This document shows, piece by piece, positions 47,417 to 64,000 of a stretch of 64,000 nucleotides of DNA (positions within the stretch are counted from its first letter, which is position 1; every line of letters starts with the position of its first letter). Source of the DNA: Oscillospiraceae bacterium (GTDB taxonomy: Bacteria; Bacillota; Clostridia; Oscillospirales; Acutalibacteraceae); assembly GCA_031268405.1 (NCBI GenBank), contig JAIRXF010000006.1:1-64000 (forward strand), in the 5' to 3' direction. A program made the position numbers and the translations under genes. The notes below the pieces were generated by a model. The model was not told the DNA's origin and ran no database searches. It was given only the letters and a program-made list of their open reading frames with translations.

Positions 47417-49054
47417 CTATCCCTTCCCCTCTCCCCATTGGAAACTGGATGGTTTTTTGTTTGTACTTACGGTTTGTTCTTGAATCGGTTGTGAGATGAC
47501 ATGATTTATGGCCCGCTTTTGAATTAGTTGTTGGAGGGTTTGTTCCTGAATTTCGTACAAGTCTGATTCATCAAATAAATTCTCTTTTCCTACTATTTCT
47601 TCCATTTGCTGATCTATAAAACTGCTAGAAAAATCAAAATCTCCAACCAAGCCTAATTTCGCTAAATCTAATGGCGAAATATAAGATAACTTAAAACAAC
47701 CATCTCCAGCGCACCAAAATATCAAATTCTCTCCCCTCAATGATAAAAAACTTTCTTGCGCAAATTTAGCTTTCAAAATATTAATCCCATAGCTTAAACT
47801 TTCGTCAACTGTTCTTTCTACGCTTCTAGCACTTGTACAGGTGTCGATCGCATCATAAGTTAACTTTTCAGTTGCACTATCATGCAGATATATTTCTTTT
47901 ATTCCATCTCTTGTTTTAAAAAGATAAGTTTGTTCATAAAAAACTTTTTTTGATACTCCTTTGTAATCTGATGCCGACAAGGGACCAAGCTCTACAATTT
48001 TTACTCGATTTAAATAACTTACATCATGCACTGTACTTGTTCTGCCAAATTTATCTCTACTGACGAATTCTTGCTTAATCTCTCCTCCATTGCCGTCTGT
48101 GGGCTCTTCATCTTGCTGCTGATCATAACCAGCGTGACGAATCATTAGACTTTCTCTACTCTCATTGCTCGTAATAATAATTACAAGCTTGTGTAATTCA
48201 ACTCTATGTTCAGAGGGTAAATATAAAAATCCTTCATCCACCATAGTTCTGAACTTTTCATCCATGCCCTCTATATCATTACGAAAAATCTTCTCGGCGT
48301 CATCGAAAATAATCATTGCTTGTTCGTTCTCAATAACAAAATCGGTAACAGATTGTATGCGTTGTGCTCCAGCAGCACTCTTGTAACCAGTATTGATTCC
48401 CAAAGCAAAAAGTTGATCCATTACATTGCCGCCACCATAACTACTGGGCGTTATAAAACCCGGAGTCACTGTCCTTAAACATTTGAGGTTTTTCAGCATT
48501 GCTTCTGCTATGATTTTGGCCGTTTTGGTCTTGCCGTTTCCACTATTGCCGACTATATATATGATGTGAACTCCCCTGCCCGTTGAATCTCTTCTGTCGA
48601 TTCTATCAAAATTATCAACTATAGAAAAAAGAATTTTTTTGATCTCTTTTTTGGCGAATTCATGTCCGGAAATTTGGGCAAATCCCGCATCTAATCTGGG
48701 TTCTAATTCCTCTATGCTTTTCACAAATACATCGCCAGAAGAACTGTATCTTTTAACCGCTACAACAGCGGGCATAACAATTTTTTTGAGACTCGAAATA
48801 GAAGATTCTAAATTTAAAATCACTTGTGTGATCATAAAAATGTTATTTACATAACGGCTAAAACCACTGGCACCACCAGAAAGCGCTGAAAATACAGCAG
48901 CCATCACCCCACCGCCAATCACTTCCGAGGTTTCGCTACCTTGATCGTTGGTTTTTCCTTCTTGCGAAATATTTTCTTTACCGGCAAAAGCCGGGGAATA
49001 AGATGAAAAACAAAAACTAATTGTCAAAATAATAGAAAATAATTTCTTATACAT
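47417..49054 (-). CDS. Secreted AAA+ ATPase, ClpB/Torsin-like
   Basis: 545 residues. A clear signal peptide (about 1-24, hydrophobic core then SPAFA-GK), a second hydrophobic stretch near 50-75, then one AAA+ module: Walker A IVGNSGNGKTKTAK (169-176), Walker B AMIIFDDAEKIF with DD instead of DE, sensor-1 LVIIITSNES, and a ClpB-like C-terminal small domain (DTCTSARSVERTVDESL). ATP is not normally available outside the bacterial cytoplasm, so a secreted AAA+ protein is unexpected; eukaryotic Torsins are the known lumenal relatives. Gln/Glu-rich C-terminus (EQTLQQLIQKR). No partner gene is adjacent. Export into a host cell is one possible explanation, not shown. Confidence 0.8.
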   Translation of the reverse strand: MYKKLFSIILTISFCFSSYSPAFAGKENISQEGKTNDQGSETSEVIGGGVMAAVFSALSGGASGFSRYVNNIFMITQVILNLESSISSLKKIVMPAVVAVKRYSSSGDVFVKSIEELEPRLDAGFAQISGHEFAKKEIKKILFSIVDNFDRIDRRDSTGRGVHIIYIVGNSGNGKTKTAKIIAEAMLKNLKCLRTVTPGFITPSSYGGGNVMDQLFALGINTGYKSAAGAQRIQSVTDFVIENEQAMIIFDDAEKIFRNDIEGMDEKFRTMVDEGFLYLPSEHRVELHKLVIIITSNESRESLMIRHAGYDQQQDEEPTDGNGGEIKQEFVSRDKFGRTSTVHDVSYLNRVKIVELGPLSASDYKGVSKKVFYEQTYLFKTRDGIKEIYLHDSATEKLTYDAIDTCTSARSVERTVDESLSYGINILKAKFAQESFLSLRGENLIFWCAGDGCFKLSYISPLDLAKLGLVGDFDFSSSFIDQQMEEIVGKENLFDESDLYEIQEQTLQQLIQKRAINHVISQPIQEQTVSTNKKPSSFQWGEGKG

Positions 49055-51945: not shown

Positions 51946-52893
51946 ATGTATAATGAACTTATGAAAATTGCGGGACTAACCAAAATAATTGATAGAAAAG
52001 TTTTATTGAAAGATGTAAATGTTAGCATTCCCGAAAACAGTTTAGTGGCTATATTGGGTAAAAATGGTGCGGGCAAATCCACTTTTATTAAATGTATTGC
52101 AGGTCTTTATAAGATTGATCACGGGAGTATCACTGTTTCTGGACTAAATTGGGATAAAAAAAATGATAAAAAAATAAAAAGACTTATATCTTACATACCC
52201 GACAAATCTAATTTTGATTATAATTTGACTGTAGAACAAAATATATTACATCATGCCTCGCTGTACGGAATAAATGAAAAGCGAGTTAAAAATAAAGTTG
52301 ATGATTTGTTTAAATTCTTTGATTTGTATGAACGTAAAAACGACACTATAAATCATTATTCTCTTGGCATGCAAAAAAAAGCATTAATTATACGGGGCCT
52401 TATTTCAGAACCACAAATATTGGTTTTAGATGAACCCACCAATGGCCTCGATCCTGGAGCAGAAAAGGATTTTATAGATAAATTATTTGAACTAAATAAG
52501 CAAGGAATAACCATTATATTGTCAACACAATCTTTAAATATAGCCAAACGTTTTGGAATATCAATTTATATAGAAGAGGGTATGGTAAGGGAAATATCCG
52601 CTAACAAAATATCAGATCAAACAGATTTAAATTTTATATCAGTAGAAACTCAGCCTATGGATTTAGAACAGATAGAAAAAACACAAATCACAATTAATAA
52701 ACATGAGTTTATTGCTAAAATAAAAACTGGAAATAATTGTATAAAAATCGAGCTATCAAATAATGAGTCATATGTTATCAGCAAATTAATAAATGACATT
52801 TTGATGCTAGATATATCGATAATCAAAATTGAAATTAAAAATGATAATTTAAAAAATTATGAAGAGTATTTGCATGGAATAGAAGGGAGCTAA
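51946..52893 (+). CDS. ABC transporter ATPase, ABC-2 exporter type
   Basis: 315 residues. Walker A LGKNGAGKST (38-46), Q-loop region, signature HYSLGMQKKA, Walker B ILVLDEPTNGLDPG and switch STQSLNI in place of the usual His, followed by about 100 C-terminal residues of regulatory type. Energises the permease encoded six bases downstream. As the first gene of the operon it is the natural exporter or self-protection pump for the product. ATG with GGGG ten bases upstream. Confidence 0.92.
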   Translation: MYNELMKIAGLTKIIDRKVLLKDVNVSIPENSLVAILGKNGAGKSTFIKCIAGLYKIDHGSITVSGLNWDKKNDKKIKRLISYIPDKSNFDYNLTVEQNILHHASLYGINEKRVKNKVDDLFKFFDLYERKNDTINHYSLGMQKKALIIRGLISEPQILVLDEPTNGLDPGAEKDFIDKLFELNKQGITIILSTQSLNIAKRFGISIYIEEGMVREISANKISDQTDLNFISVETQPMDLEQIEKTQITINKHEFIAKIKTGNNCIKIELSNNESYVISKLINDILMLDISIIKIEIKNDNLKNYEEYLHGIEGS

Positions 52894-52899
52894 TAATTT

Positions 52900-53649
52900 T
52901 TGAAACGTTTTGATTTCGTAAGTGTGTTCAAAAAAGAGTTTAATGCCTCTTTTAAGCTTTTGACAATAGTTCTTGGAGGGATGGTAACACCATTATTCAT
53001 ATATGGTTTCTTTTCAATGGTTGTGGGGGGCAATAGTTTTGATTCTTACATGCCTTATAAACATTACATGGTAAGCGGAACGGTAATATTTCAATTGGTA
53101 TATTCCACTTTTTATCAAGCTTCTTATTCTACATTTTTTTCATCTAACGTTACTCAAACAATGGATGAATTACTGACTTCTCCGCTCAATTCTAAAGATA
53201 TATTACTTGGTAGGACGTTAAGCACTTCTATGATAACAGTTATAGTTAGCATCCCTCTTTTAATTTGCTTGATCTTCTGGAGTGGACTTTTGTTTAATTT
53301 GGTTTGGTATTTGATTGCATTAGTAGGTTTGGCCGTTTTAGCAATAATATTTTCGTTGTTAGGAACTTTACTTGGAATACTGGTAAATAGTGAATTTAGT
53401 CTGATAAATTTTGCGAATATGATCGTTATTCCATTAACTTTTGTATCTGATACATTTGTAAAATTAAGCGCAATTCCATCATTAAAATATATTCTTTATT
53501 GCTCTCCAATAAAATTAGCAAATGATGTTGTACGTGAAGCTTTGGTACTTTCAAAATTAAATTGGTTAAGCGGATTGATACTGGTTTTATTTATGGTTGT
53601 ATCTTGGGTTGTTGTGTACAAAGTATTTGATAAAAAATTAAAAGACTAG
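52900..53649 (+). CDS. ABC-2 type permease
   Basis: 249 residues with six transmembrane helices, ABC-2 family: N-terminal coupling helix (FVSVFKKEFNASFKLL), TM1 near 20-40, the conserved cytoplasmic loop TMDELLTSPLNSKDILLGRTLST, and the C-terminal FVKLSAIPSLKYILYCSPIKLANDVVRE. TTG start right after GGGAG. Forms an exporter with the preceding ATPase; the likely cargo is the operon product. Confidence 0.9.
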   Translation: MKRFDFVSVFKKEFNASFKLLTIVLGGMVTPLFIYGFFSMVVGGNSFDSYMPYKHYMVSGTVIFQLVYSTFYQASYSTFFSSNVTQTMDELLTSPLNSKDILLGRTLSTSMITVIVSIPLLICLIFWSGLLFNLVWYLIALVGLAVLAIIFSLLGTLLGILVNSEFSLINFANMIVIPLTFVSDTFVKLSAIPSLKYILYCSPIKLANDVVREALVLSKLNWLSGLILVLFMVVSWVVVYKVFDKKLKD

Positions 53650-53660
53650 GGAGTTTTAAA

Positions 53661-54359
53661 ATGAAAGTTTGTATCATTCAAAAGCAACAGTCGAAAACCC
53701 CAGCTAACAATATAAGGTCTGCATTAGAACAGTTGCCTAAAGCAATTGAAAAAGGTGCCGATTTAATTTGTTTTCAAGAGTGGTTTTTAGGAACTAATCC
53801 TCCAGATAAAATACCTAATAAATTCACACAAATGCTTTCAAAATTTGCAATTGAAAATGGCGTTACGATAGCAACTGGCAATATGCGAATTCAAATAGAT
53901 GATATTGGGAAAAAATTTATACAGTTGACTTGTCTCATAGACAAAAATGGTGAAATCATTATAAAGCAGCAGAAAAATAATTTATATAAGGGCGAAATGC
54001 CTTGGTATGTGGGCGGTAATAAATTGGAAAGCTGTTCTGTTGGTTCAGATGTGTTTGTTGTTACGAGTGGTTTTGATAGTGTTAATGAGAAAATTTATAG
54101 TAAAATCAAAGATAAAAAACCAAGTATCTGGATAGCACAAGCTAATGAATTTGCGTTTGATGCAAAAATAAGCATGTACGATAAATTAATAGATATGATG
54201 AAAAAACGTAGTAAAGAGTTATCATGCACTATAGTTGTTCCAATGATTTTGGGGAATTTTTACGGTGCTAACTATACTGGAAAAAGCTTTGTTGCTAAAA
54301 ATGGTGATGTTGTATCTAAAATAGACGATTTACCAAATCTTCTGATCTGTGAGGTATAA
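53661..54359 (+). CDS. Nitrilase-fold protein lacking the catalytic cysteine (1)
   Basis: 232 residues of the carbon-nitrogen hydrolase fold. Catalytic Glu40 (LICFQEWFLG) and Lys105 (QKNNLY) positions are kept, but the Cys position reads Gly137 in VVTSGFDSVNEKIY (family: CYDxxFPE). A normal amidase or nitrilase mechanism is therefore not possible. The C-terminal strand GKSFVAKNGDVV matches the usual dimer region. First of four related genes in the operon. It may act as a scaffold, a pseudo-amidotransferase partner of the AsnB-like ligases, or have a new activity. Confidence 0.85.
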   Translation: MKVCIIQKQQSKTPANNIRSALEQLPKAIEKGADLICFQEWFLGTNPPDKIPNKFTQMLSKFAIENGVTIATGNMRIQIDDIGKKFIQLTCLIDKNGEIIIKQQKNNLYKGEMPWYVGGNKLESCSVGSDVFVVTSGFDSVNEKIYSKIKDKKPSIWIAQANEFAFDAKISMYDKLIDMMKKRSKELSCTIVVPMILGNFYGANYTGKSFVAKNGDVVSKIDDLPNLLICEV

Positions 54360-54362
54360 ATA

Positions 54363-55439
54363 TTGAAAAATATCAATTTAGAATTAGCCAATCCAGGTGG
54401 TAGACTTTATCCAGTTTCTGTTTGCCTTCAGATGGTACTCGATTTTAAGGGCGAAAAATATCAAGTTTTCGAAGTTGAAAATATGTCTGGACATCCATAC
54501 GGTTGGTTTTATGTTAATCAATTAATAGCAGGCACTGGTCAAGAGGTGGAAATCACTCCAGGAACTGAATTAACTAATTCAATTAAAATAGCAGCGGACA
54601 ATATCGGCTATAAATATACACATTGCGAAACAGATACTTGGTCTGAAATGGAAAATTTTATACATTTTGAGCTGAATAACAACAATCCTATCATATTTGG
54701 GCCTGTGTCATACAAACATTTAATTTATCAAATTAGTGCGCACCGTGCTACAGAAATCGCAAGCCATTATATAGTATTAGTTGGCTGCAATAATGATATT
54801 GTTTATTTTCATGATTCAAATGGTATGTCTTACGTTCCTTTTACTTTTGAGGAATTACAAAAATCATGCACTGCTGGAGTAGTTTTACCGGGAGCTAAAA
54901 GATTTTCCGCTATAACTTTAAAGGAAAAAATCTCAAATTTTAGTGCTATTGAAATTTTTAAAAAAGTGATTGAAAGAGGCGTTGATAGTTACCACGATAA
55001 AAAAATTCGACAAGATGGATACATTGGTCTTATTTGCTTAAAAAAATATGCAGAGGATATAGAAAAATGGCTTGGAGCAAAAACACAATTACAAAAAGAA
55101 ATAATAATGCGCAAATTGGGATTGTTTTTTTATCCAAAGAGTAATCAAATAAGAGCAGATGCCATAACGTATATGCAAATTTTCAAAAAATTAATGCCGT
55201 CTGTTTCAAATATGATCAACGAATTTTGTTCTTTATTTACTAAAGCATGTGTCTTGTATTGTGAAGGAGCTTCTATAATTACTCCAAATCTAATATCTTT
55301 CGATGAAGAAAAAATGAAATCTCAACTTAGCTTGCTAAAATTTAATGCTTTGAAATTGTACGAATTGGAAACAAAAGCTTATGAAAAATTAAAAGAAATC
55401 AATATTGTAATAAAGGATTTTCAGGAAGGGGGTGATTAA
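54363..55439 (+). CDS. BtrH/C39-like papain-fold protein
   Basis: 358 residues. The first 180 resemble the BtrH N-terminal / C39 cysteine-protease-like fold: RLYPVSVCLQMVLDFKGEKY, then ASHYIVLVGCNNDIVYFHDSNGM with the His and Asp positions kept. In active C39 enzymes the Cys sits five residues before the conserved Leu; here that place is Pro17 and a Cys (Cys21) is next to the Leu, so catalysis is uncertain. The C-terminal half is helical (KTQLQKEIIMRKLG). BtrH itself is an acyltransferase in butirosin synthesis. It lies one base before the peptide gene, so leader cleavage or acyl transfer on that peptide is a reasonable guess. TTG start after GAGGT. Confidence 0.75.
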   Translation: MKNINLELANPGGRLYPVSVCLQMVLDFKGEKYQVFEVENMSGHPYGWFYVNQLIAGTGQEVEITPGTELTNSIKIAADNIGYKYTHCETDTWSEMENFIHFELNNNNPIIFGPVSYKHLIYQISAHRATEIASHYIVLVGCNNDIVYFHDSNGMSYVPFTFEELQKSCTAGVVLPGAKRFSAITLKEKISNFSAIEIFKKVIERGVDSYHDKKIRQDGYIGLICLKKYAEDIEKWLGAKTQLQKEIIMRKLGLFFYPKSNQIRADAITYMQIFKKLMPSVSNMINEFCSLFTKACVLYCEGASIITPNLISFDEEKMKSQLSLLKFNALKLYELETKAYEKLKEINIVIKDFQEGGD

Positions 55440-55440
55440 T

Positions 55441-55584
55441 GTGAGAAGTGTATATAACTATTGTGGCCCCGCTAAAGTCGACAAACAAAAAATGAACAAC
55501 AGTTGCAATTATTGCGGTCCTGCTAAAGTACCTGCTGTTGTCAATAAAAATGTTTGTAATTACTGCGGTCCCGCCAAACAATAG
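55441..55584 (+). CDS. Three-repeat NYCGPAK peptide, candidate RiPP precursor
   Basis: 47 residues, not seen by simple ORF calling because of the GTG start and short length; a near-perfect ribosome site (AAGGGGGTGA) lies seven bases upstream. The peptide has YNYCGPAK at 5-12, CNYCGPAK at 22-29 and CNYCGPAK at 39-46, an exact 17-residue (51-base) period, with variable spacers between them and only four residues before the first block. It has five Cys; the first block has Tyr5 in place of the leading Cys. The third-position codon choices differ between repeats (for example GGC-CCC and GGT-CCT), so the motif is held by selection and not by recent duplication. There is no classical leader, so recognition may be by the repeats or spacers. 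Each block may yield one product copy. Confidence 0.85.
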   Translation: MRSVYNYCGPAKVDKQKMNNSCNYCGPAKVPAVVNKNVCNYCGPAKQ

Positions 55585-55592
55585 TATGAATT

Positions 55593-55630
55593 CAGGGGGA
55601 TACTAAGTTAATATTATGCGGTATCCCCTG
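55593..55630 (+). promoter_or_regulatory. Hairpin after the peptide gene
   Basis: CAGGGGGATAC (55593-55603) pairs with GTATCCCCTG (55621-55630), one bulged G, 17-base loop; nine bases after the peptide stop. There is no T run after it, so it is more likely an mRNA-stabilising or attenuating hairpin that keeps peptide mRNA more abundant than the enzyme genes. Confidence 0.6.
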
Positions 55631-55660
55631 CATCCGGTTAACAATTCAAGGGGAGATAAT

Positions 55661-56167
55661 ATGGAACTTATGGTTTTAAAACCAAAGCGTATAAAAGGTT
55701 TTAATTTTGCCTATGTGACAAACACTGGAAGTTATAAAAAATTGTCCAATACTGTAAATTACCTAGAAAACATTTTAGAAAAAAATGATATTAAATTTGA
55801 CAATGTGGTTTCAGTTTTAATGGACGACCCTAATGTTACTGAAGAGTCACAATTAAAATGCGAGTTGGGTGTAATTTTAAGAGACTACAATGAAAACAAC
55901 CCGGCACTTGCTGCTGATATCAAAATCAAACGCATTGATGATTTTGTGGGTTTGGTTTTCGATTATACGGGAGAAATACAGGGGATAGATAATTATTATA
56001 AAGCAATAATTAAAAAAATGACAGAAGCTTCTTATATAATAGCGGGGTTCCCTATCGAATTTTATATAAAAAGTCCGATAAATTCTGAAAAAGATGGCTT
56101 GTGCCACACAAGGATAATTATTCCGATTTTTTATACATGGGAGAATAAACGTGAAATTAATGATTAG
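55661..56167 (+). CDS. GyrI-like small-molecule-binding protein
   Basis: 168 residues. GyrI/SOUL-type beta-alpha pattern: FAYVTNTGSYKKLSNTVNYLENILEKNDI, middle VSVLMDDPNVTEESQLKCELGVIL (the DDP and C-E-L-G box of the family), and IAGFPIEFYIKSPINSEKDG...IIIPIF. Such domains bind cyclic or aromatic small molecules and serve as sensors, sequestering proteins or occasionally hydrolases. Here it may bind the product as immunity protein. No DNA-binding part. ATG 55661 follows GGGGAG; the last 17 bases overlap the MfnB-like gene. Confidence 0.75.
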   Translation: MELMVLKPKRIKGFNFAYVTNTGSYKKLSNTVNYLENILEKNDIKFDNVVSVLMDDPNVTEESQLKCELGVILRDYNENNPALAADIKIKRIDDFVGLVFDYTGEIQGIDNYYKAIIKKMTEASYIIAGFPIEFYIKSPINSEKDGLCHTRIIIPIFYTWENKREIND

Positions 56168-56846
56168 TGTTGTTAATAAGGATGAAGCATTGATTGCCCG
56201 CGATTCGAAAGCGGAGCTAATAGATATTAAAAATCCCGAAGAAGGTTCATTGGGTGCTCAGAGCCCTTTGGTTATTAAAGAGATAGTCGACGTTTTACCT
56301 TCTGATATTGAGATCAGTGCCACTGTTGGTGATGTCCCTTATCTTCCGTGTACTATCGCACAAGCGGCATACGCCGTCGCCTCATTTGGGGTAAAGTATG
56401 TAAAAATTGGTTTCAAGGGATGTAAAAACAGCGAGGAAGCAAAAAATTTAGCTAATAAAATTGTAAATTCAGTAAAAGAATTTGATTCAAACATTATAAT
56501 CGGCTGTTATGCAGACTATAAAGAAAATAACACATTATCACCATTTGAAATTTTAGAAGGTGTTAAAAATACTGGAGTTTCGGGGATTTTGATTGATACA
56601 TTGGGCAAAAAAGGTAAAAACCTTTTTGATTATATGGGTGCAGAAGAATTAAAAAAATTCACTTACGAAACTCACATGCACAATCTTTTAGTTGCATTGG
56701 CAGGGTCAATAAAATATGATCACATTGGTGTTTTAAAAGAAATGGGTGCAGATATTTCGGGAGTTAGGGGAGCTATTTGTGATGGAGACCGAATGAGTGA
56801 AATAAACCCTGAAAAAATCAAAAAGTTTATGAGTCAAATAGCTTAA
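56151..56846 (+). CDS. mfnB: (5-formylfuran-3-yl)methyl phosphate synthase homologue (MfnB)
   Basis: 231 residues, the length and the motif order of MfnB, which joins two glyceraldehyde-3-phosphates to a furan aldehyde phosphate, the first step to methanofuran. Motifs: ELIDIKNPEEGSLGAQSPLVIKEI, SATVGDVPYLPCTIAQAA, KYVKIGFKG, LIDTLGKKGKNLFDY, ALAGSIKYDHI and GVRGAICDGDR. Lys27 (Schiff-base lysine in the methanogen enzyme), Lys85, Asp149 and Lys153 fall at the places of its catalytic residues, so it is probably active. Methanofuran is unexpected in a spore-forming Firmicute. GTG start with GGGAG, translationally coupled to the GyrI-like gene. Confidence 0.9.
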   Translation: MKLMISVVNKDEALIARDSKAELIDIKNPEEGSLGAQSPLVIKEIVDVLPSDIEISATVGDVPYLPCTIAQAAYAVASFGVKYVKIGFKGCKNSEEAKNLANKIVNSVKEFDSNIIIGCYADYKENNTLSPFEILEGVKNTGVSGILIDTLGKKGKNLFDYMGAEELKKFTYETHMHNLLVALAGSIKYDHIGVLKEMGADISGVRGAICDGDRMSEINPEKIKKFMSQIA

Positions 56847-56867
56847 TTGTGCAAAAGGAAGTTTTTT

Positions 56868-58130
56868 ATGTTCAGTGGTATAGCCGGTGGAATAAACTTA
56901 AATGAAAAAACAATTAACTCTATTTCAAAATGTTTGGGAAATAGATCGCTTTGTGCATCCAAAATTTCTAATATTGCTTTTTTAACAGTAAACTCAAAAT
57001 TATATAATTCAAAAGAAGTAAATAATTTATCTAATGATGAAATTGCTTTACTTGCTTTTGACGGAAAATTATATGGTTGTAAAAACAAAAAACGTTTTGA
57101 TATTGTGAATTCTTTTTCCTCTAAAAGTAATTTTAATGAAGTATATGGAAAATTTGCCGTTGCCGTTGCTAAAACCGATGGAAGCATTTTATTGGCAAGG
57201 GATTATCCGGGATCGATTCCTCTATTTTATTGCTTGGAAAACAACGTTTTTGCATTTTCTACTGTGTATGGATTATTGGAAAAAATAGGTTTAAAAAAAG
57301 TTCAAGCAGTGCAGCCGGGCACGAATATACTTTATAAAAAGGGTAAAATTTCAACTATTAACTGGTACAATTCTACTGTCAAAAACTCCCCTGATTATGA
57401 TGCTGTTTCGAATATAGATAATTTGTTTGACGAAACCATAAAAGAAATTATGTCGTGCTATAAAAACGCCCCTGTTGGAATTATGTTATCCGGCGGTGTG
57501 GATTCGGCTTTATTATCTCATTATATTTCTAAATATACTTCAAATGTTTATTCATATGTAATGGACGGCGAAGACAAACACTATGGGGAGCTTGTTAGCA
57601 AGCTTTTTGGTTTTAAAATCAATATAATTGATAATTCTCTAATAGAAAGAGAAAAAATTTTATTTACGAGCTATAACTACAACAAACAATTTGAAAATCT
57701 AAACAATTCTTTATTCGTACCTACGTACGTTATTGCCAAAAAAGCAAACGCAGATAATGTAAAATTGCTTTTCAGCGGAGACGGTATTGATGAATTGTTT
57801 GGCGGATATGATTTGAGTTGTGATACGCAATCTATGAATATTGCAATAAGAAACATGGTTGACAGTATGTTTTTATACAGCTTAGACAGACTTCATGTTG
57901 CATGCAACACAAATAATGTAAGTGTTGCCGTGCCATTTCTTCATCAAAAAATTATCGAAGCAGCTTTTTCTATAGATGCTAAATATAAACAAAATAAGTA
58001 CTTAATTAGAAAAATTGCTGAAAAATATTTACCCAATAACATAGCTTGGAGGGAAAAATCACCATTACAAGTTTCGACTCACAGCTATGAATTATTATAT
58101 AAAAGGAAATGGATTGGGCTTCATCATTAA
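56868..58130 (+). CDS. Asparagine-synthetase-like ATP-dependent ligase without Ntn cysteine (1)
   Basis: 420 residues, shorter than AsnB. The N-terminal Ntn domain begins MFSGIAGG; AsnB has MCGIAG, so the nucleophile Cys is missing (Ser3 is nearest) and glutamine cannot be used as amide donor in the usual way. The synthetase domain keeps the PP-loop SGGVDS (208-213), FSGDGIDELFGGYD and the C-terminal SVAVPFLHQKIIEAAF. Such enzymes adenylate a carboxylate and form an amide or lactam, as in beta-lactam synthetase and lasso cyclases. ATG 56868 follows AAAAGGAAG. The next gene is a diverged paralogue. Confidence 0.88.
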   Translation: MFSGIAGGINLNEKTINSISKCLGNRSLCASKISNIAFLTVNSKLYNSKEVNNLSNDEIALLAFDGKLYGCKNKKRFDIVNSFSSKSNFNEVYGKFAVAVAKTDGSILLARDYPGSIPLFYCLENNVFAFSTVYGLLEKIGLKKVQAVQPGTNILYKKGKISTINWYNSTVKNSPDYDAVSNIDNLFDETIKEIMSCYKNAPVGIMLSGGVDSALLSHYISKYTSNVYSYVMDGEDKHYGELVSKLFGFKINIIDNSLIEREKILFTSYNYNKQFENLNNSLFVPTYVIAKKANADNVKLLFSGDGIDELFGGYDLSCDTQSMNIAIRNMVDSMFLYSLDRLHVACNTNNVSVAVPFLHQKIIEAAFSIDAKYKQNKYLIRKIAEKYLPNNIAWREKSPLQVSTHSYELLYKRKWIGLHH

Positions 58131-58157
58131 ATCGGCGAAAGGGGTAAAACATTAATT

Positions 58158-59459
58158 ATGGCGTATTATTGGGGAGGCTGTAACCTAAGCAAAAATGATA
58201 TAAATCGTTTAAAAGATAACAAAACAACTGGTAATACATCCGAATATAAACATTATAATGCTGATAATTTTTATATTTACTATTCAGAAAATAATATTAA
58301 AGTTTCTAATAGTGATAGCGAATCATTTTTATTAATGAACGGCTACATATATAATCCTTATATGTCTAATTATTCAGGCCCTAAAAATTTTTCTGAACTA
58401 GATAAATACTTGCGCACAAACGATAATCTGAACGATATTTATGGAGCTTTTACAATTTGTTTTAAAAATAAAAATAGCGTATTACTTGCTCGGGATTACC
58501 CTGGCATATTTTCTGTTTATTATGTTTTAGATTGCGACAAATTATATTTTTCGAACGACTATAATCGTTTGCGTTTTGCGGGATTTAAAAATATTAGATA
58601 TCTAAAGCCGGGTTCTAGCATTGAATACCACCTTAAAAACAAAAATATAAAACAAATCGATCACTACAATCCTATTTTACCAACTTTGCACAACGATCCT
58701 ATAGGTCAGTTTGATGATATGCTATTTAATGTAACTAAGTCGCTTTTTATAGCTACATCAAACTTTGATAAAAAAGTCGCTACATTGCTATCGGGCGGCG
58801 TAGATTCTTCGTTGATAACATATTATTTAAGTCAAATTTGTTCAGACGTTTGTGCATTTACAATTGATGGTAGAGATAATGTTTTTGCTCAAGAAGTAAG
58901 CAATTTACTTAATATTGAACATAAATTTATAATTATTAATGATGAACAATGGAAGAGTGGTTCTAATATTTTCCCTCGAAAAATATATAATGACGGATTC
59001 TATGAATTAGCAAATTCTCTATTTTTACCTAATTATTTTTTACTTCAGGAAATAAAAAAATATCCAATAAATTTAGCATTTAGTGGTGCTGGTTCCGACG
59101 AACTTTTTGCATCATATAGCAGACATCTTATGTATATGAGAGATATTTCTTATGCGGCCAGAAAAATAGTTGATGATTGCCACATATACTATTTGGAAAC
59201 TGTAGAGCTAGCTAGCAAACTTTCTAATAATCCTATTTGTTTAATGCCATTTTTTGCTAAAGAAATTATTAATTTTGGACTAGCTCTTCCAGATAAATTT
59301 AAAATTCATAACAGCATGGAAAAATGGATAGTTAGAAAAGTCGCTGAAAAGTATCTACCTAAAACTACGTCATGGAGAGAGGCAGCCCCTTTGCAATACA
59401 GTACCAATAGCTTTAAAAAAATCAATGGTAATAGTTATTACGAATCATATTATTGTTAG
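58158..59459 (+). CDS. Asparagine-synthetase-like ATP-dependent ligase without Ntn cysteine (2)
   Basis: 433 residues, same architecture as the preceding gene. The N-terminus MAYYWGGCNL lacks Cys2; Ntn-like strands follow (SFLLMNGYIYNP, YGAFTICFKNKNSVLLARDYPG). PP-loop SGGVDS (212-217), then FSGAGSDELFASYSRH and LMPFFAKEIINFGLALPDKF. DG/GD metal-binding loop is GAGSDE here versus GDGIDE in its neighbour, so substrates may differ. The two proteins may work on different carboxylates or form a heterodimer. Ribosome site AAAGGGG. Confidence 0.87.
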   Translation: MAYYWGGCNLSKNDINRLKDNKTTGNTSEYKHYNADNFYIYYSENNIKVSNSDSESFLLMNGYIYNPYMSNYSGPKNFSELDKYLRTNDNLNDIYGAFTICFKNKNSVLLARDYPGIFSVYYVLDCDKLYFSNDYNRLRFAGFKNIRYLKPGSSIEYHLKNKNIKQIDHYNPILPTLHNDPIGQFDDMLFNVTKSLFIATSNFDKKVATLLSGGVDSSLITYYLSQICSDVCAFTIDGRDNVFAQEVSNLLNIEHKFIIINDEQWKSGSNIFPRKIYNDGFYELANSLFLPNYFLLQEIKKYPINLAFSGAGSDELFASYSRHLMYMRDISYAARKIVDDCHIYYLETVELASKLSNNPICLMPFFAKEIINFGLALPDKFKIHNSMEKWIVRKVAEKYLPKTTSWREAAPLQYSTNSFKKINGNSYYESYYC

Positions 59460-59470
59460 GAGAATGTTAA

Positions 59471-60331
59471 ATGAAAAACAACGCAATGGAATTAAACTCC
59501 AATTATTATCAATCTTATATGAAAGGTAATTATGATAGGGTATCAAAAAATTATGACGATAACATGGATTATAAGTGGCAAAATGACAACGATCCAAGGT
59601 ACGATTTTGAAAACACAGTTTTATCGGCATGTGAAGCAAAACCATCCAACTTTTCAGCCCTTGACGTTGGTACGGGAACAGGCAGAATTTCTTTAATGAT
59701 CGCATCAAAATTTCCAAACGCTAATGTAAGGGGTCTAGATCAATCAACGCAAATGATAGAAATAGCAAAATCTAAAACTAAAGATATGCATCTGAAAAAT
59801 ATATCTTTTGATCAGTATAGCATTGAAACAAAACTTCCTTATTCGGAAAAGATATTTGACATTGTAACATGCTCTTTAGCAATGATATACTTTACGCAAA
59901 AAGATAAGTTTATAGGCGAAACAAATCGGATTTTAAAAGCGGGTGGTTTTTGCTGCGTAAGTACCATTGGTAACGAAGATATGAATTCGGTTCTTGAACC
60001 ATTTTGGGAATTATATTACAAGTTTAATCCAAGTTTTGTTAACACTTTTAATCCAAGGCTTAGTGAAGAACAGTCTCGAAAGCTTTTTGAAGACGCAGGT
60101 TATTCTGGGGTAAAAGTAACAAGTTTCAAGGAAAATGTGATTTTCGGATCACTTAGGGATTATATGGCGCTTTTTAATACTTACGGTTTAAGTGGATTAT
60201 TGTTTTTTCTTCCAAAATCTGCCGCAATACAACTTATGGATGAATATCAAAAAAAATTGGAAAGTATGTGCGGACCAGATGGCAACCTTGTAGTTTTGCG
60301 TGAAGTGCTAATAACCAAGGGTCAAAAATAA
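59471..60331 (+). CDS. SAM-dependent methyltransferase, class I
   Basis: 286 residues. Motif I ALDVGTGTGRISLMIA, acidic residue GLDQSTQMIEIAK, motif IV FDIVTCSLAMIYF and post-motif RILKAGGFCCVST, as in ubiE-type small-molecule methyltransferases. N-terminus YDDNMDYKWQNDNDPRYD is a substrate cap region. Likely methylates N, O or C of the operon product or intermediate. AGGAG ribosome site; 11 bases after the ligase gene. Confidence 0.92.
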   Translation: MKNNAMELNSNYYQSYMKGNYDRVSKNYDDNMDYKWQNDNDPRYDFENTVLSACEAKPSNFSALDVGTGTGRISLMIASKFPNANVRGLDQSTQMIEIAKSKTKDMHLKNISFDQYSIETKLPYSEKIFDIVTCSLAMIYFTQKDKFIGETNRILKAGGFCCVSTIGNEDMNSVLEPFWELYYKFNPSFVNTFNPRLSEEQSRKLFEDAGYSGVKVTSFKENVIFGSLRDYMALFNTYGLSGLLFFLPKSAAIQLMDEYQKKLESMCGPDGNLVVLREVLITKGQK

Positions 60332-60350
60332 TTACGAGGGAGAATTTGCA

Positions 60351-61154
60351 GTGAGCTTAAAAGTTGAAGTTATCCAGTTAAACGTGGTTCAAGGTGAATT
60401 TCAAGAAAATTTGATAGCAATAGAAACGTATGTAAAGCAAAAAAAATCTGACACAAAACTTTTAGTATTTCCGCAGTATGCAATTACAGGTTATCCTACT
60501 TTAAAAATTTTAAATTTGCTAAACAGTGAACATGATAATTTAATAAAACAAATTTGCGAAATAGCACGTAAATATAAAGTGGGATTATTGTTTTCTATTC
60601 CCAAAAACGTAGAAAAAAACTCATTCCAAGATTGCATTTGTTATGTAAATGAAAATGGGACTATTGAAACAACATATATTCGTATTAATAAATTTTGGAG
60701 AGAAGATAATTGCATAACTGGAAAAGAAATCAAAATTATTAACATAGACAATATCAAAATCGGAATCATGGCTGGAGATGATATTTATTATCCGGAAATT
60801 TCACGGCAATTAGCACAAAATGAAGTAAGCTGTATAATTTGCTTATTTTATAATGCCAAACGCAAATTAAGTGGAAATAATTTTGATTTAGCTGATATTT
60901 TAAAAAGTTTGGTTATGGCATCAGCGGTAATAAATGAAGTGGATTTTTTACTCTGTTCGGCAAATGGTACAATTGATCAAGATGATAATCAATCCATAAT
61001 TGCGGGTTCAGTATTAGTGGGGAATAGTATGATAATTTCATTAAGTGAACCAAAAGAAATAAACATTGGCAACAACGAAAATTCTTTTACATCCATAATA
61101 GATGAAAATAAAATTAATTTTTACCGCATGATAAATCGAAGAAATCAACAATAA
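60351..61154 (+). CDS. Nitrilase-fold protein lacking catalytic Glu and Cys (2)
   Basis: 267 residues, carbon-nitrogen hydrolase fold closest to NAD-synthetase-type glutaminase domains. Family FPELALTGYP reads FPQYAITGYP (Gln42 for Glu), Lys114 is kept (INKFWRED), and the Cys site is Gly142 in GIMAGDDIYYPEISRQLA. Two of three catalytic residues are gone. The loop after the former Cys keeps the family shape (DDIYYPE). GTG start with GAGGGAG. Clearly more diverged from the other nitrilase-like proteins of the operon. Confidence 0.87.
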   Translation: MSLKVEVIQLNVVQGEFQENLIAIETYVKQKKSDTKLLVFPQYAITGYPTLKILNLLNSEHDNLIKQICEIARKYKVGLLFSIPKNVEKNSFQDCICYVNENGTIETTYIRINKFWREDNCITGKEIKIINIDNIKIGIMAGDDIYYPEISRQLAQNEVSCIICLFYNAKRKLSGNNFDLADILKSLVMASAVINEVDFLLCSANGTIDQDDNQSIIAGSVLVGNSMIISLSEPKEINIGNNENSFTSIIDENKINFYRMINRRNQQ

Positions 61155-61177
61155 TCAAATTTTAAGGGGTGTTGTAA

Positions 61178-61909
61178 GTGCGTATAGCAATTTCTGGAAT
61201 AAAACAAATCGTAGGAAACGATCAGCATAGAATGGACAATCGGATTTCTGATGGCGTACGTACTGCGTTAAATACAGTTACTAAACAAATTTATGAGTGT
61301 GGCAAAAACGATGTTTCGTTGGTTTGTTTTCCCCAATGGTTTATAGGGTTTGGAAGTGTAATTGAATACCCCAATGAAATTACGGAAGCAATTTCAGTTG
61401 CAGCTAAAAACAACAAATTAGATGTGGTAACTGGAACGTTTAGAACTCCTGGGTTCGGAATGAAAAGTAAACCAGTGTCACTTTTTATAAATCATGAGGG
61501 AAAAATAGTTGGTGAGCAAGGCAAGAAAAATTTATATGAACTTGAGGAGCAATGGCAATTATCATCAAACGATGTCAATGTTTTTGAATCGCAATTGGGG
61601 AAAATTGTAATTAGCCACGGTGATGATTGTGTGGACCCAAATGTATATGAACAAATAAAAAAAATCAAACCAAACATATGGGTATTACAAACTAATGATG
61701 CTATAAATACTGGTAAATTCGAAGCTTGCAGTTTATCATTTGAAGAACTTGCGAAATTAAGAAGTAGAGAATTAGAATGTACAATTTGTGCACCTATGTT
61801 GAATGGTGAATTTATGCATGTAAACTACAGTGGTGATGGCTTTATTTGCGATAGTTTGGGAAAAACAATTAAAATATCTGGTTCAAAAGAATTATTGTTG
61901 TATCGGTAG
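61178..61909 (+). CDS. Nitrilase-fold protein lacking catalytic Glu and Cys (3)
   Basis: 243 residues, paralogue of the first nitrilase-like protein (both share FxxWFxG and the LCxxxSxELxCTIxxPM-like end). Glu is replaced by Gln53 (CFPQWFIGFG), Lys116/117 remains (GKKNLYELEE), and the Cys place is Gly148 (VISHGDDCVDP). A Cys three residues later could not take over without a shift of the loop. GTG start with AAGGGGT. Confidence 0.85.
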   Translation: MRIAISGIKQIVGNDQHRMDNRISDGVRTALNTVTKQIYECGKNDVSLVCFPQWFIGFGSVIEYPNEITEAISVAAKNNKLDVVTGTFRTPGFGMKSKPVSLFINHEGKIVGEQGKKNLYELEEQWQLSSNDVNVFESQLGKIVISHGDDCVDPNVYEQIKKIKPNIWVLQTNDAINTGKFEACSLSFEELAKLRSRELECTICAPMLNGEFMHVNYSGDGFICDSLGKTIKISGSKELLLYR

Positions 61910-61917
61910 GAAATAGT

Positions 61918-62661
61918 ATGGAGATAATTTTTGCTTTAGACATAAAAAACGAAAAAGTAGTTCACGGGATTCAAGGTAAAAGATACTGGTATGCTCCACC
62001 TAAAAATAAGCTATTTGACCCCCCTATTCCCGAAAATATTGTAAACACCGTTATAAAAAAATATGGTATTAATAAATTTTATATTGCGGATCTTAATTCT
62101 ATTATGAAAAACGGAAATAATTTTTTCATCCTTGATTCATTAATTCAAAAATTTAAATTTTCTGATTTTTATATAGATGCGGGAATTTATAATCAAGATT
62201 ACATTAGCGATTATTTGAAAAAAGGATATTCCAAGGTAATCATCGGGTTAGAAACTCTTAAAAATATAGGGATATTGAAAGACCTATACAAACAATACGG
62301 TGATAAAATTTTATTTAGTTTGGATCTTTATAATGGCATTCCAGTTACATCGGATAGAAATTTGTTAAATAAACAAGCAAGTGAAATTATAAAATTAGTG
62401 AAAAATTATGGAGCTAAAGAGATTATATTTTTAGATATTAATAGCGTAGGCGCTATGTTGGGACATAATTCAGTGTATACATCACTGGTTGAAACTTGGG
62501 GCAGTGAAATAGACATTTTTGTAGCTGGCGGAATTAAATCTATTGAAAACATATCTGAATTTAAAAAATTGGGAGTAAAGGGTGTCATTTTAGCATCTCT
62601 AATATACGGCAATCTTATAAACTATGATGATATTAGGGGATTAAGTGGGAGTAGAACATAA
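61918..62661 (+). CDS. HisA-like TIM-barrel protein of the methanofuran/methanopterin-associated type
   Basis: 247 residues, HisA/HisF fold. The start FALDIKNEKVVHGIQGKRYWYAPPKNKL (motif D-x(5)-VVHG-x-GxR-x2-Y) is the form found in HisA-like proteins encoded with C1-coenzyme genes, not in true HisA. Asp8 and Asp136 (SLDLYNG) sit at the two catalytic Asp positions of HisA, and VAGGIKSIENISEFKKLGVKGVILAS is the phosphate-binding end. It has no his-operon neighbours, so a role in making or modifying the furan or a phosphate intermediate is likely. Its stop and the next ATG overlap by one base. Confidence 0.78.
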   Translation: MEIIFALDIKNEKVVHGIQGKRYWYAPPKNKLFDPPIPENIVNTVIKKYGINKFYIADLNSIMKNGNNFFILDSLIQKFKFSDFYIDAGIYNQDYISDYLKKGYSKVIIGLETLKNIGILKDLYKQYGDKILFSLDLYNGIPVTSDRNLLNKQASEIIKLVKNYGAKEIIFLDINSVGAMLGHNSVYTSLVETWGSEIDIFVAGGIKSIENISEFKKLGVKGVILASLIYGNLINYDDIRGLSGSRT

Positions 62662-63809
62662 TGTGGTATAGCAAACAATTTTTATGTGAAATGGTTAATG
62701 ATTTCTATATCTATGATGAAAATATTTTGGGCGATATGGGTAAAATCGAACATTGTTACGACCATAACAGTAAAATTTCAAAAATTTTTCTGGATATAAC
62801 CAATAAATGTAACATACGATGCAGACATTGTTTTACGGACGCAAAAAACAACCCCAATATAAAGGAACTAAATACCGATGATATAAAAAAAATAATAAAC
62901 GACTTAGTAAAATTGAACATTAACAGACTGGCATTAGGCGGCGGAGAACCGCTTGTTAGACCTGACATATACGAATTAATTCATTACGGAAGCGAACGGG
63001 GATTAAGAATTCACATTAGTTCTAACGGCCTTTTATTAACTGAAAATAATATAAAAAAGCTAAAAAAATGCGGGTTGAATTCAATACAAATTAGTATAGA
63101 CAGCAGTATTGCAGCTCAACATGATTATCTTAGAAATTGTCCGGGATTGTTTGATAAATGTCTCGAGACAATAAAGAATATCAAAAAGCACCGCATAAAT
63201 TTATTGGTATCAACTACTATCACTAAATTAAATATCAATGAACTTGACGACATAGCTAAAATGGTAAAATCATCAGGAGTTAGATTGCATAGATTTATAA
63301 GATTTGTTCCCGTAGGTAGAGGGAATGATTCCAAAAATATGCTCTATGTCGAAGGAGAGATGCTATCAAAAAAAGTAAGTCATTTGCGTAAAAAATATGC
63401 CAAATATTTTTTCGGAAATCCAAAAAATTATTTTGGTATACCTATAACAACTTATGAAGATAAAAAATACAAAAACAATCCAATTGGTTGCGAGGCTGGT
63501 AAATTAAGCGTAGATATACTTCCCAATGGCAACGTTGTGCCCTGTAATTATTTGGGCATAGACGAGCAATGGATATGTGGAAACATCGTTGACAATACGC
63601 TGGAACATATTATAAATAATAGTTCTGTATTAAAAAAATTCAAACACTTGAGTGGTAAAAATATTGCAAAATGTTTTGATTGTTTATCTAGCAAAATTTG
63701 TGGAAAGGGCTGTAGAGCAGTTGCCTATAATTTGCACGGTGCTATCGATGCACTTGACCCATGTTGTACAAAATTGATGGGGGAATATGAAAATGAAATT
63801 AGGGGTTAG
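62661..63809 (+). CDS. Radical SAM/SPASM enzyme, peptide-modifying type
   Basis: 382 residues. Radical SAM cysteines C50-x3-C54-x2-C57 (CNIRCRHC), GGGEPLVR, then a SPASM domain with GCEAGKLSVDILPNGNVVPCNYLG and CFDCLSSKICGKGC for auxiliary clusters. Relatives modify ribosomal peptides (thioether, C-C or epimer formation) or small cofactors. There is no N-terminal RRE domain, so substrate recognition must come from elsewhere. The next gene starts inside its last codons (17-base overlap). The repeated Cys-containing peptide of this operon is the obvious candidate substrate. Confidence 0.92.
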   Translation: MWYSKQFLCEMVNDFYIYDENILGDMGKIEHCYDHNSKISKIFLDITNKCNIRCRHCFTDAKNNPNIKELNTDDIKKIINDLVKLNINRLALGGGEPLVRPDIYELIHYGSERGLRIHISSNGLLLTENNIKKLKKCGLNSIQISIDSSIAAQHDYLRNCPGLFDKCLETIKNIKKHRINLLVSTTITKLNINELDDIAKMVKSSGVRLHRFIRFVPVGRGNDSKNMLYVEGEMLSKKVSHLRKKYAKYFFGNPKNYFGIPITTYEDKKYKNNPIGCEAGKLSVDILPNGNVVPCNYLGIDEQWICGNIVDNTLEHIINNSSVLKKFKHLSGKNIAKCFDCLSSKICGKGCRAVAYNLHGAIDALDPCCTKLMGEYENEIRG

Positions 63810-64000
63810 TAATTTTGAATATAGCAATGTATTTCAAGCAAATCTGAATAAAGCGAGCTACCAAGCCAAGATGGCTTTCCGAAAGGGATGCAATATAATT
63901 ATTTTTCACGAATGGTTTTTGGGCATTAATCCTGTTGGTGAGGTTCCCAATAAAGTCACCGAGTCGTTATGTCAAATAGCTAAAGATAATAAAATTATGG
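63793..64000 (+). CDS. Nitrilase-fold protein (4), N-terminal part only
   Basis: 69 residues before the window ends. MKLGVSNFEYSNVFQ start, and IIIFHEWFLGINPVGEVPNKVTESL, closely similar to the first nitrilase-like protein (FQEWFLGTNPPDKIPNKFT), with the catalytic Glu kept. The Lys and Cys positions are outside the window, so it is open whether this copy is intact. ATG with GGGGGA ten bases upstream. It shows that the operon continues to the right. Confidence 0.85.
   Translation, partial: MKLGVSNFEYSNVFQANLNKASYQAKMAFRKGCNIIIFHEWFLGINPVGEVPNKVTESLCQIAKDNKIM

Follow-up and report, generated by a model that had tools for sequence, protein, structure and literature searches.

The first 64000 bases of contig JAIRXF010000006.1 (87,519 bases; hereafter the window) come from an Oscillospiraceae bacterium whose 1.03 Mb genome is 97% complete. 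They contain the start of an operon in which a short repeat peptide is encoded together with homologues of MfnB, MfnE, MfnF and the HisA-like Orf17, that is, all four furan-module genes of bacterial methylofuran synthesis. Our reading, which we regard as evenly balanced between right and wrong, is of an acquired operon in which the methylofuran head-group pathway has been recruited to decorate the Tyr residues of the peptide, the phenol oxygen being the site at which MfnF would attach the furan. This reading offers the simplest link between a peptide with a Tyr in each repeat and a furan pathway that modifies tyrosine, both encoded in the same operon. The recruitment of the furan module and the loss of its one-carbon (C1) context are well supported; the bond between furan and peptide is one that we infer.

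The MfnB homologue aligns over its full length with MJ1099 (E 1e-50). Residues D25, K27, K85, D149 and K153 (own numbering) are conserved, including the Asp and Lys of the DTxxK motif, as seen in an alignment to 4rc1 and relatives. Apart from the equivalent of Lys155 of MJ1099, we take these Asp and Lys residues to be catalytic. The protein combines a strong match to the family profile with the catalytic residues. Lys155 of MJ1099 has itself been named as catalytic (PMC11365854). The MfnE-like protein scores 97 bits against NF040622 (equivalog cut-off 300), within the 63-102 bits of copies linked to C1 metabolism, and its kinase motifs KxGGSL, PGGGxFAD and SWxVTSDS are conserved relative to 7qrh. 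A LysW-type amino-group carrier system was considered, MfnE being a member of the amino acid kinase family, and was rejected as the MfnE profile fits far better. The MfnF-like protein gives 145 bits with NF040623 (cut-off 520; C1-linked copies 187-188) and 211.5 bits with TIGR03123 (cut-off 244.1; C1-linked copies 255-286); its nucleotide-binding motifs DIGGA and DMGSTTTDIIPI are conserved relative to 3c0b. The HisA-like barrel is the sole PF00977 protein above cut-off in the genome and is therefore unlikely to serve in histidine synthesis. In bacterial methylofuran synthesis the corresponding proteins are Orf22 (MfnB), Orf21 (MfnE), Orf9 (MfnF) and Orf17. The last of these is HisA-like and of unknown role, and strains deleted for it make no methylofuran (PMC8141765).

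Neither FTR (PF01913) nor MCH (PF02289), the usual users of this coenzyme, was found in the host genome. Within the limits of a 97%-complete genome, this excludes ordinary C1 use of methanofuran, a coenzyme of methane-producing microbes. In the phylum sample both enzymes are present in five of the six other genomes with MfnB; in the sixth genome, 83% complete, MfnB is found at the end of a contig. Four more MfnB genomes, from the class of the nearest relative, carry MfnB-MfnF-MfnE in an apparent shared C1 cluster, with FTR confirmed by Pfam in one; these four appear to be of Halanaerobium type. Across the sampled phylum, MfnB thus accompanies C1 enzymes in 9 of 10 other genomes and a peptide in the host genome only. 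Firmicutes have been listed among the bacteria with these genes, a Halanaerobium genome being cited (PMC5020050). The sequence-only reading had suggested a peptide that carries, or acts as scaffold for, a furan-derived group. Its furan component is strengthened by MfnE and MfnF in the same operon and by the missing FTR and MCH; the furan may be attached to the peptide or built on it. We note that in low-GC Halanaerobiia-type genomes (L047-L050, L018) a formylmethanofuran/tetrahydromethanopterin-type cluster has MfnB-MfnF-MfnE in fixed order with pterin-synthesis genes adjoining, and that MfnB is patchy within the genus g319 (four of 12 listed members).

MfnB and MfnF have diverged to different extents. 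For MfnB, identity to the nearest relative is 47-48%, and the nearest relatives as a group (40-48%) belong to the C1 pathway; MfnF shows 23-27% identity to the aligned C1-linked copies. Among residues invariant in C1-linked copies, MfnB retains 32 of 37 and MfnF 30 of 48, with 18 changed. The end branches are 0.81 (MfnB) and around 3.5 (MfnF) changes per column, the tree tool warning of a long branch. An unchanged furan with a changed acceptor would fit the strongest divergence being that of MfnF, the acceptor-specific enzyme.

The peptide, VINVRSVYNYCGPAKVDKQKMNNSCNYCGPAKVPAVVNKNVCNYCGPAKQ, has 47-50 residues and contains NYCGPAK three times at a spacing of exactly 17 residues. A repeat peptide at this place had been recognised earlier, with a start at GTG 55432; GTG 55441 (47 residues) is favoured, being preceded by a near-perfect Shine-Dalgarno sequence, GGGGGTGAT. 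Six of the seven repeat codons differ among the three DNA copies, only in third positions and always synonymously, which argues that the peptide is a translated and selected gene product. When the peptide was shuffled 20000 times, a 4-mer present three times arose in 3 cases. No leader precedes the first repeat. The short precursor gene sits beside genes for radical SAM/SPASM, AsnB-like and methyltransferase proteins, the gene content of a cluster for a ribosomally synthesized and post-translationally modified peptide (RiPP). The peptide stop codon is followed by an RNA hairpin of modest statistics (-16 kcal/mol over 55582-55635, z -2.1, 6 of 200 shuffles equally good) without a T run. Hairpins that set the precursor apart from the enzyme genes are a common feature of peptide operons.

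The operon comprises 22 genes on one strand, from 51946 to about 72260 (contig position), or some 20 kb (Table 1). Intergenic gaps are at most 51 bp, many genes abut or overlap, and a clear Shine-Dalgarno sequence precedes most of them. At least 14 coupled genes had been described in 51946-64000; all 14 are there, on a single strand and tightly spaced. They are followed by eight more, the first starting at 63787 and the rest beyond 64000, so that the run crosses the window edge. It is this sequence to the right, proposed earlier as a check, that holds the MfnE- and MfnF-like genes. The G+C content of the run (31.5%) is near that of its left (32.9%) and right (35.4%) sides, so base composition does not point to a chimaeric contig. 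Three paralogous sets were identified at 28-32% identity: nitrilase-like proteins 1, 3 and 4, the two AsnB-like proteins, and the two radical SAM proteins.

Table 1. Genes and other features of the furan-module operon (window and contig positions coincide)
Feature	Position	Strand	Basis
ABC transporter ATPase (exporter half 1)	51946..52893	+	PF00005 108.7 bits
ABC-2 type permease (exporter half 2)	52900..53649	+	PF01061 59.8 bits
Nitrilase-like 1, catalytic Cys to Gly	53661..54359	+	PF00795 33.9 bits; alignment of four paralogues
BtrH-like (weak assignment; at best acyltransferase-like)	54363..55439	+	BtrH_N 17.4 bits, Pfam cut-off 29.7
Repeat peptide gene	55432..55584, likely start 55441	+	sequence, codon pattern, Shine-Dalgarno
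RNA hairpin after peptide stop codon	55595..55629	+	folding energy vs shuffles
GyrI-like small-molecule-binding protein	55616..56167	+	PF06445 40.2 bits
MfnB homologue, (5-formylfuran-3-yl)methyl phosphate synthase family	56151..56846	+	PF04476 245.9 bits, cut-off 22.4
AsnB-like ligase 1	56847..58130, likelier start ATG 56868	+	PF00733 101 bits
AsnB-like ligase 2	58158..59459	+	PF00733 102.6 bits
Class I SAM methyltransferase	59471..60331	+	PF13847 83.4 bits
Nitrilase-like 2	60351..61154	+	PF00795 54.1 bits; alignment to 3p8k
Nitrilase-like 3	61178..61909	+	30% identity to nitrilase-like 1; modelled nitrilase fold
HisA-like barrel, TIGR00734 / Orf17 type	61918..62661	+	TIGR00734 107 bits, top NCBIfam match; His_biosynth
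Radical SAM/SPASM 1, cluster Cys intact	62661..63809	+	PF04055 94 bits, PF13186 39.5 bits
Nitrilase-like 4 fused to metal-dependent amidohydrolase	63787..65295 (contig position; window holds 63787..64000)	+	
MfnE-like	contig 65304-65900	+	
TldD-like 1	contig 65888-67054	+	
TldD-like 2	contig 67056-68231	+	
M24-like	contig 68283-69407	+	
Radical SAM/SPASM 2	contig 69425-70456	+	
MfnF-like	contig 70453-71496	+	
Nucleoside-phosphorylase-like	contig 71508-72260	+	

Most family assignments made earlier (ABC exporter, MfnB, HisA-like, two AsnB-like proteins, methyltransferase, radical SAM/SPASM) hold, and the start of AsnB-like 1 is moved to ATG 56868. The BtrH assignment fell below its cut-off; the predicted structure of this protein (pLDDT 39.5) is not usable. 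Among 398 phylum genomes it has two weak relatives, 20-25% identical and neither in a similar cluster: the contig of one is 3.9 kb long, and the genes around the other are unrelated. Nitrilase-like proteins without their Cys had also been reported correctly, and their number is now four. In all four the catalytic Cys is replaced by Gly and two also lack the catalytic Glu, so that none has an intact Glu-Lys-Cys triad. Nitrilase-like 2, aligned to 3p8k, has Cys to Gly, Glu to Gln and Lys to Arg; nitrilase-like 3 has Cys to Gly and Glu to Gln, and its model has a nitrilase fold (mean pLDDT 77) with the formamidase AmiF as best PDB match (E 2.6e-16). TldD-like 1 reads AMIIGY at the HEAVGH of TldD and so lacks the HExxxH zinc motif. 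In the M24-like protein two of the five metal ligands of 1wy2 are gone, the second Asp being Ala (YGALTRT) and the last Glu being Gly (RLGD). Both AsnB-like proteins keep SGGVDS and lack the N-terminal glutaminase Cys, unlike a glutamine-dependent asparagine synthetase. Inspection of the sequences indicated intact metal motifs in the amidohydrolase fused to nitrilase-like 4 and intact radical SAM and SPASM cysteines. The altered folds may have acquired new chemistry, may bind peptide, or may be relics.

A plausible sequence of events can be outlined. MfnB would convert glyceraldehyde 3-phosphate to (5-formylfuran-3-yl)methyl phosphate. A host transaminase (the operon has no MfnC) may aminate this product, and MfnE would then form the diphosphate. 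On the short leaderless precursor, the phenol oxygen of the NYCGPAK Tyr would displace diphosphate, catalysed by the MfnF homologue. The analogy would be with the tyramine or tyrosine substrates of MfnF in the synthesis of methanofuran and methylofuran; the methylofuran of methylotrophs contains Tyr or tyramine, to which MfnF is taken to join the furan (PMC8141765). The radical SAM/SPASM enzymes, methyltransferase and AsnB-like ligases may modify the peptide further. Since their glutaminase Cys is absent, the ligases probably use an amine other than the glutamine nitrogen, possibly the aminomethyl group of the furan. The ABC exporter would export the product, and the GyrI-like protein may bind it or confer tolerance. 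We infer the peptide as substrate, Tyr as acceptor, the order of steps, export of the product and whatever part the altered hydrolases play. It is possible, if rather doubtful, that the product defines a new RiPP class, with O-(aminomethylfuranyl)methyl-tyrosine built on the peptide Tyr by MfnB-MfnE-MfnF-Orf17 and amide rings possibly closed by the AsnB-like ligases via the furan amine.

Several observations weigh against a furan-bearing peptide. The precursor lacks a conventional leader, and the operon has neither an identified peptide-recognition domain nor a gene for an MfnC transaminase; four aminotransferase-family matches lie elsewhere in the genome. MfnE, MfnF and the HisA-like protein score below the NCBIfam equivalog cut-offs, as do most genuine C1-linked copies. 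The expected peptide cutters, TldD-like 1 and the M24-like protein, have lost metal ligands, leaving the release of the repeats unexplained. The long MfnF branch could reflect relaxed selection. Searches with MfnB, MfnF, the BtrH-like protein and the peptide motif found no second homologous locus. An unlikely, still serious, alternative is that free tyrosine or tyramine is the substrate of the furan module, yielding a small furan-tyrosine metabolite which the AsnB-like and BtrH-like proteins couple elsewhere, the peptide being a furan-free carrier, scaffold or second product. MfnF is believed to use small tyrosine substrates in methylofuran synthesis (PMC8141765), and the MfnB operons of Streptomyces plasmids, with dehydrogenases and a methyltransferase and no peptide, show MfnB outside both C1 metabolism and peptides. 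Such a metabolite would, however, leave unaccounted for the Tyr in every repeat, the position of the peptide gene in mid-operon and the unusual divergence of the MfnF homologue.

We think it improbable that the peptide is a small zinc-ribbon protein (CNYCG-x12-CNYCG) which regulates or scaffolds the pathway and is not a precursor. It does have two CxxCG knuckles 17 residues apart and weak matches to Pfam zinc fingers (best E 0.009, all below cut-off). The first repeat, however, has a single Cys; none of the three copies departs from N, Y, P, A and K, residues dispensable for zinc binding; and the two radical SAM/SPASM enzymes belong to a family often acting on peptides. A peptide-borne furan might also be an intracellular cofactor, a methylofuran analogue carrying a formyl or other one-carbon group on which the amidohydrolase fused to nitrilase-like 4 acts. 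The relation of the furan module to C1-linked copies, the match of the fusion to a metal-dependent amidohydrolase family and the apparent structural closeness of modelled nitrilase-like 3 to AmiF would suit a cofactor. We nevertheless give this very little credence, as the genome lacks FTR and MCH, an exporter opens the operon and the Cys is lost from all four nitrilase-like proteins. Ordinary methylofuran synthesis, for formaldehyde oxidation or formyl transfer, is close to refuted: the head-group module is complete, but beside the missing FTR and MCH the operon has no polyglutamate (ATP-grasp) ligase, and peptide-type enzymes make up the remainder.

The distribution of MfnB and the flanks of the operon bear on the origin of the operon in this lineage. 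MfnB occurs in one of 200 family genomes, the host; in a class sample of 391 the host is joined by one partial, probably spurious match, and MfnB is absent from two genomes of the same genus. In one of these two, the sister genome G086, orthologues of the XerC-like gene of the left flank and the AGCS symporter gene of the right flank adjoin, about 370 bp from each other and diverging in the same way; in the host they are split by 27 kb containing the cluster. This gene order is direct evidence for an insertion or rearrangement specific to the lineage. A search of the rest of the contig showed no repeat of the tRNA-Pro, which leaves integration at the tRNA unsupported. Scans of viral contigs for MfnB and MfnF returned nothing, and the two neighbourhoods read around plasmid relatives of the AsnB-like proteins were both unrelated. 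The peptide motif was sought in 84,980 genomes as tandem YCGPA with TAT as first Tyr codon and a gap of 9-39 nt, a pattern that misses TAC first codons and other spacings; none of the four matches is related to the operon peptide. Two (L008, L010) are due to chance and two (L007, L009), with neighbourhoods read only close by, are longer YCG-repeat proteins. The latter (L007 2215-2559 and L009 4121-4468, both minus strand) are of about 115 residues with some six YCG(P/R/N/K) repeats and a C-terminal hydrophobic segment; they come from metagenome-assembled genomes labelled Erysipelotrichaceae and Bacillales and are apparently unrelated to the furan operon.

No characterised cluster of this make-up was known to the sequence-only reading, and none was found in the literature searched. 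One of the closest systems is the synthesis of methylofuran (MYFR) in methylotrophs, encoded by orf22/orf21/orf9/orf17 (PMC8141765), with which the operon shares the four head-group homologues, the MfnB catalytic residues and Tyr as presumed acceptor. It differs in that its host lacks FTR and MCH, polyglutamate ligases are missing, peptide, radical SAM and AsnB-like genes are present, and MfnF is strongly diverged. Archaeal methanofuran synthesis (MfnA-F) has the MfnB, MfnE and MfnF families in common; MfnA, MfnC and MfnD are not in the operon, whose host is not a methanogen. Among RiPP clusters, those with radical SAM/SPASM maturases resemble the operon in combining a short gene for a peptide with a recurring Cys motif, genes for SPASM enzymes and one for an exporter, but here there is no leader and no identified recognition domain, and a furan module was found in no RiPP paper searched. 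The nitrilobacillin cluster (PMC13060819) likewise encodes an AsnB-like enzyme with a precursor peptide and includes a pseudoenzyme. That AsnB-like enzyme is proposed to use glutamine-derived ammonia (PMC13060819), whereas both enzymes here lack the N-terminal Cys, and there is no MNIO. A TldD/PmbA-family pair in a peptide operon recalls the TldD/TldE of microcin B17 maturation (PMC5810440); with AMIIGY replacing HExxxH, TldD-like 1 is not a metalloprotease of that type. The Streptomyces plasmid operons have MfnB proteins of 37-40% identity outside C1 metabolism and are without MfnE, MfnF and peptide. They conserve mfnB with genes for an aldehyde dehydrogenase, an alcohol dehydrogenase and a methyltransferase (L004 14788-19245, L005 14974-19344, L006 14995-19256) and give MfnB a second use where no C1 cluster is visible.

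If our reading is correct, a coenzyme pathway of one-carbon metabolism also furnishes furan to ribosomal peptides, a modification absent from the RiPP papers searched. The operon would in addition be a clean, C1-free setting for resolving the role of the HisA-like Orf17. Its presence without FTR, MCH and polyglutamate ligases argues that Orf17 acts in making the furan-tyrosine head group, a question left open in PMC8141765. With so many hydrolase folds devoid of catalytic residues, the operon is also promising for new enzyme chemistry. Outside it, we note a gene at window 47417-49054 (minus strand) for a 545-residue AAA+ ATPase (PF00004, 31.8 bits) with an apparent N-terminal signal peptide, which is unusual for AAA+ proteins.

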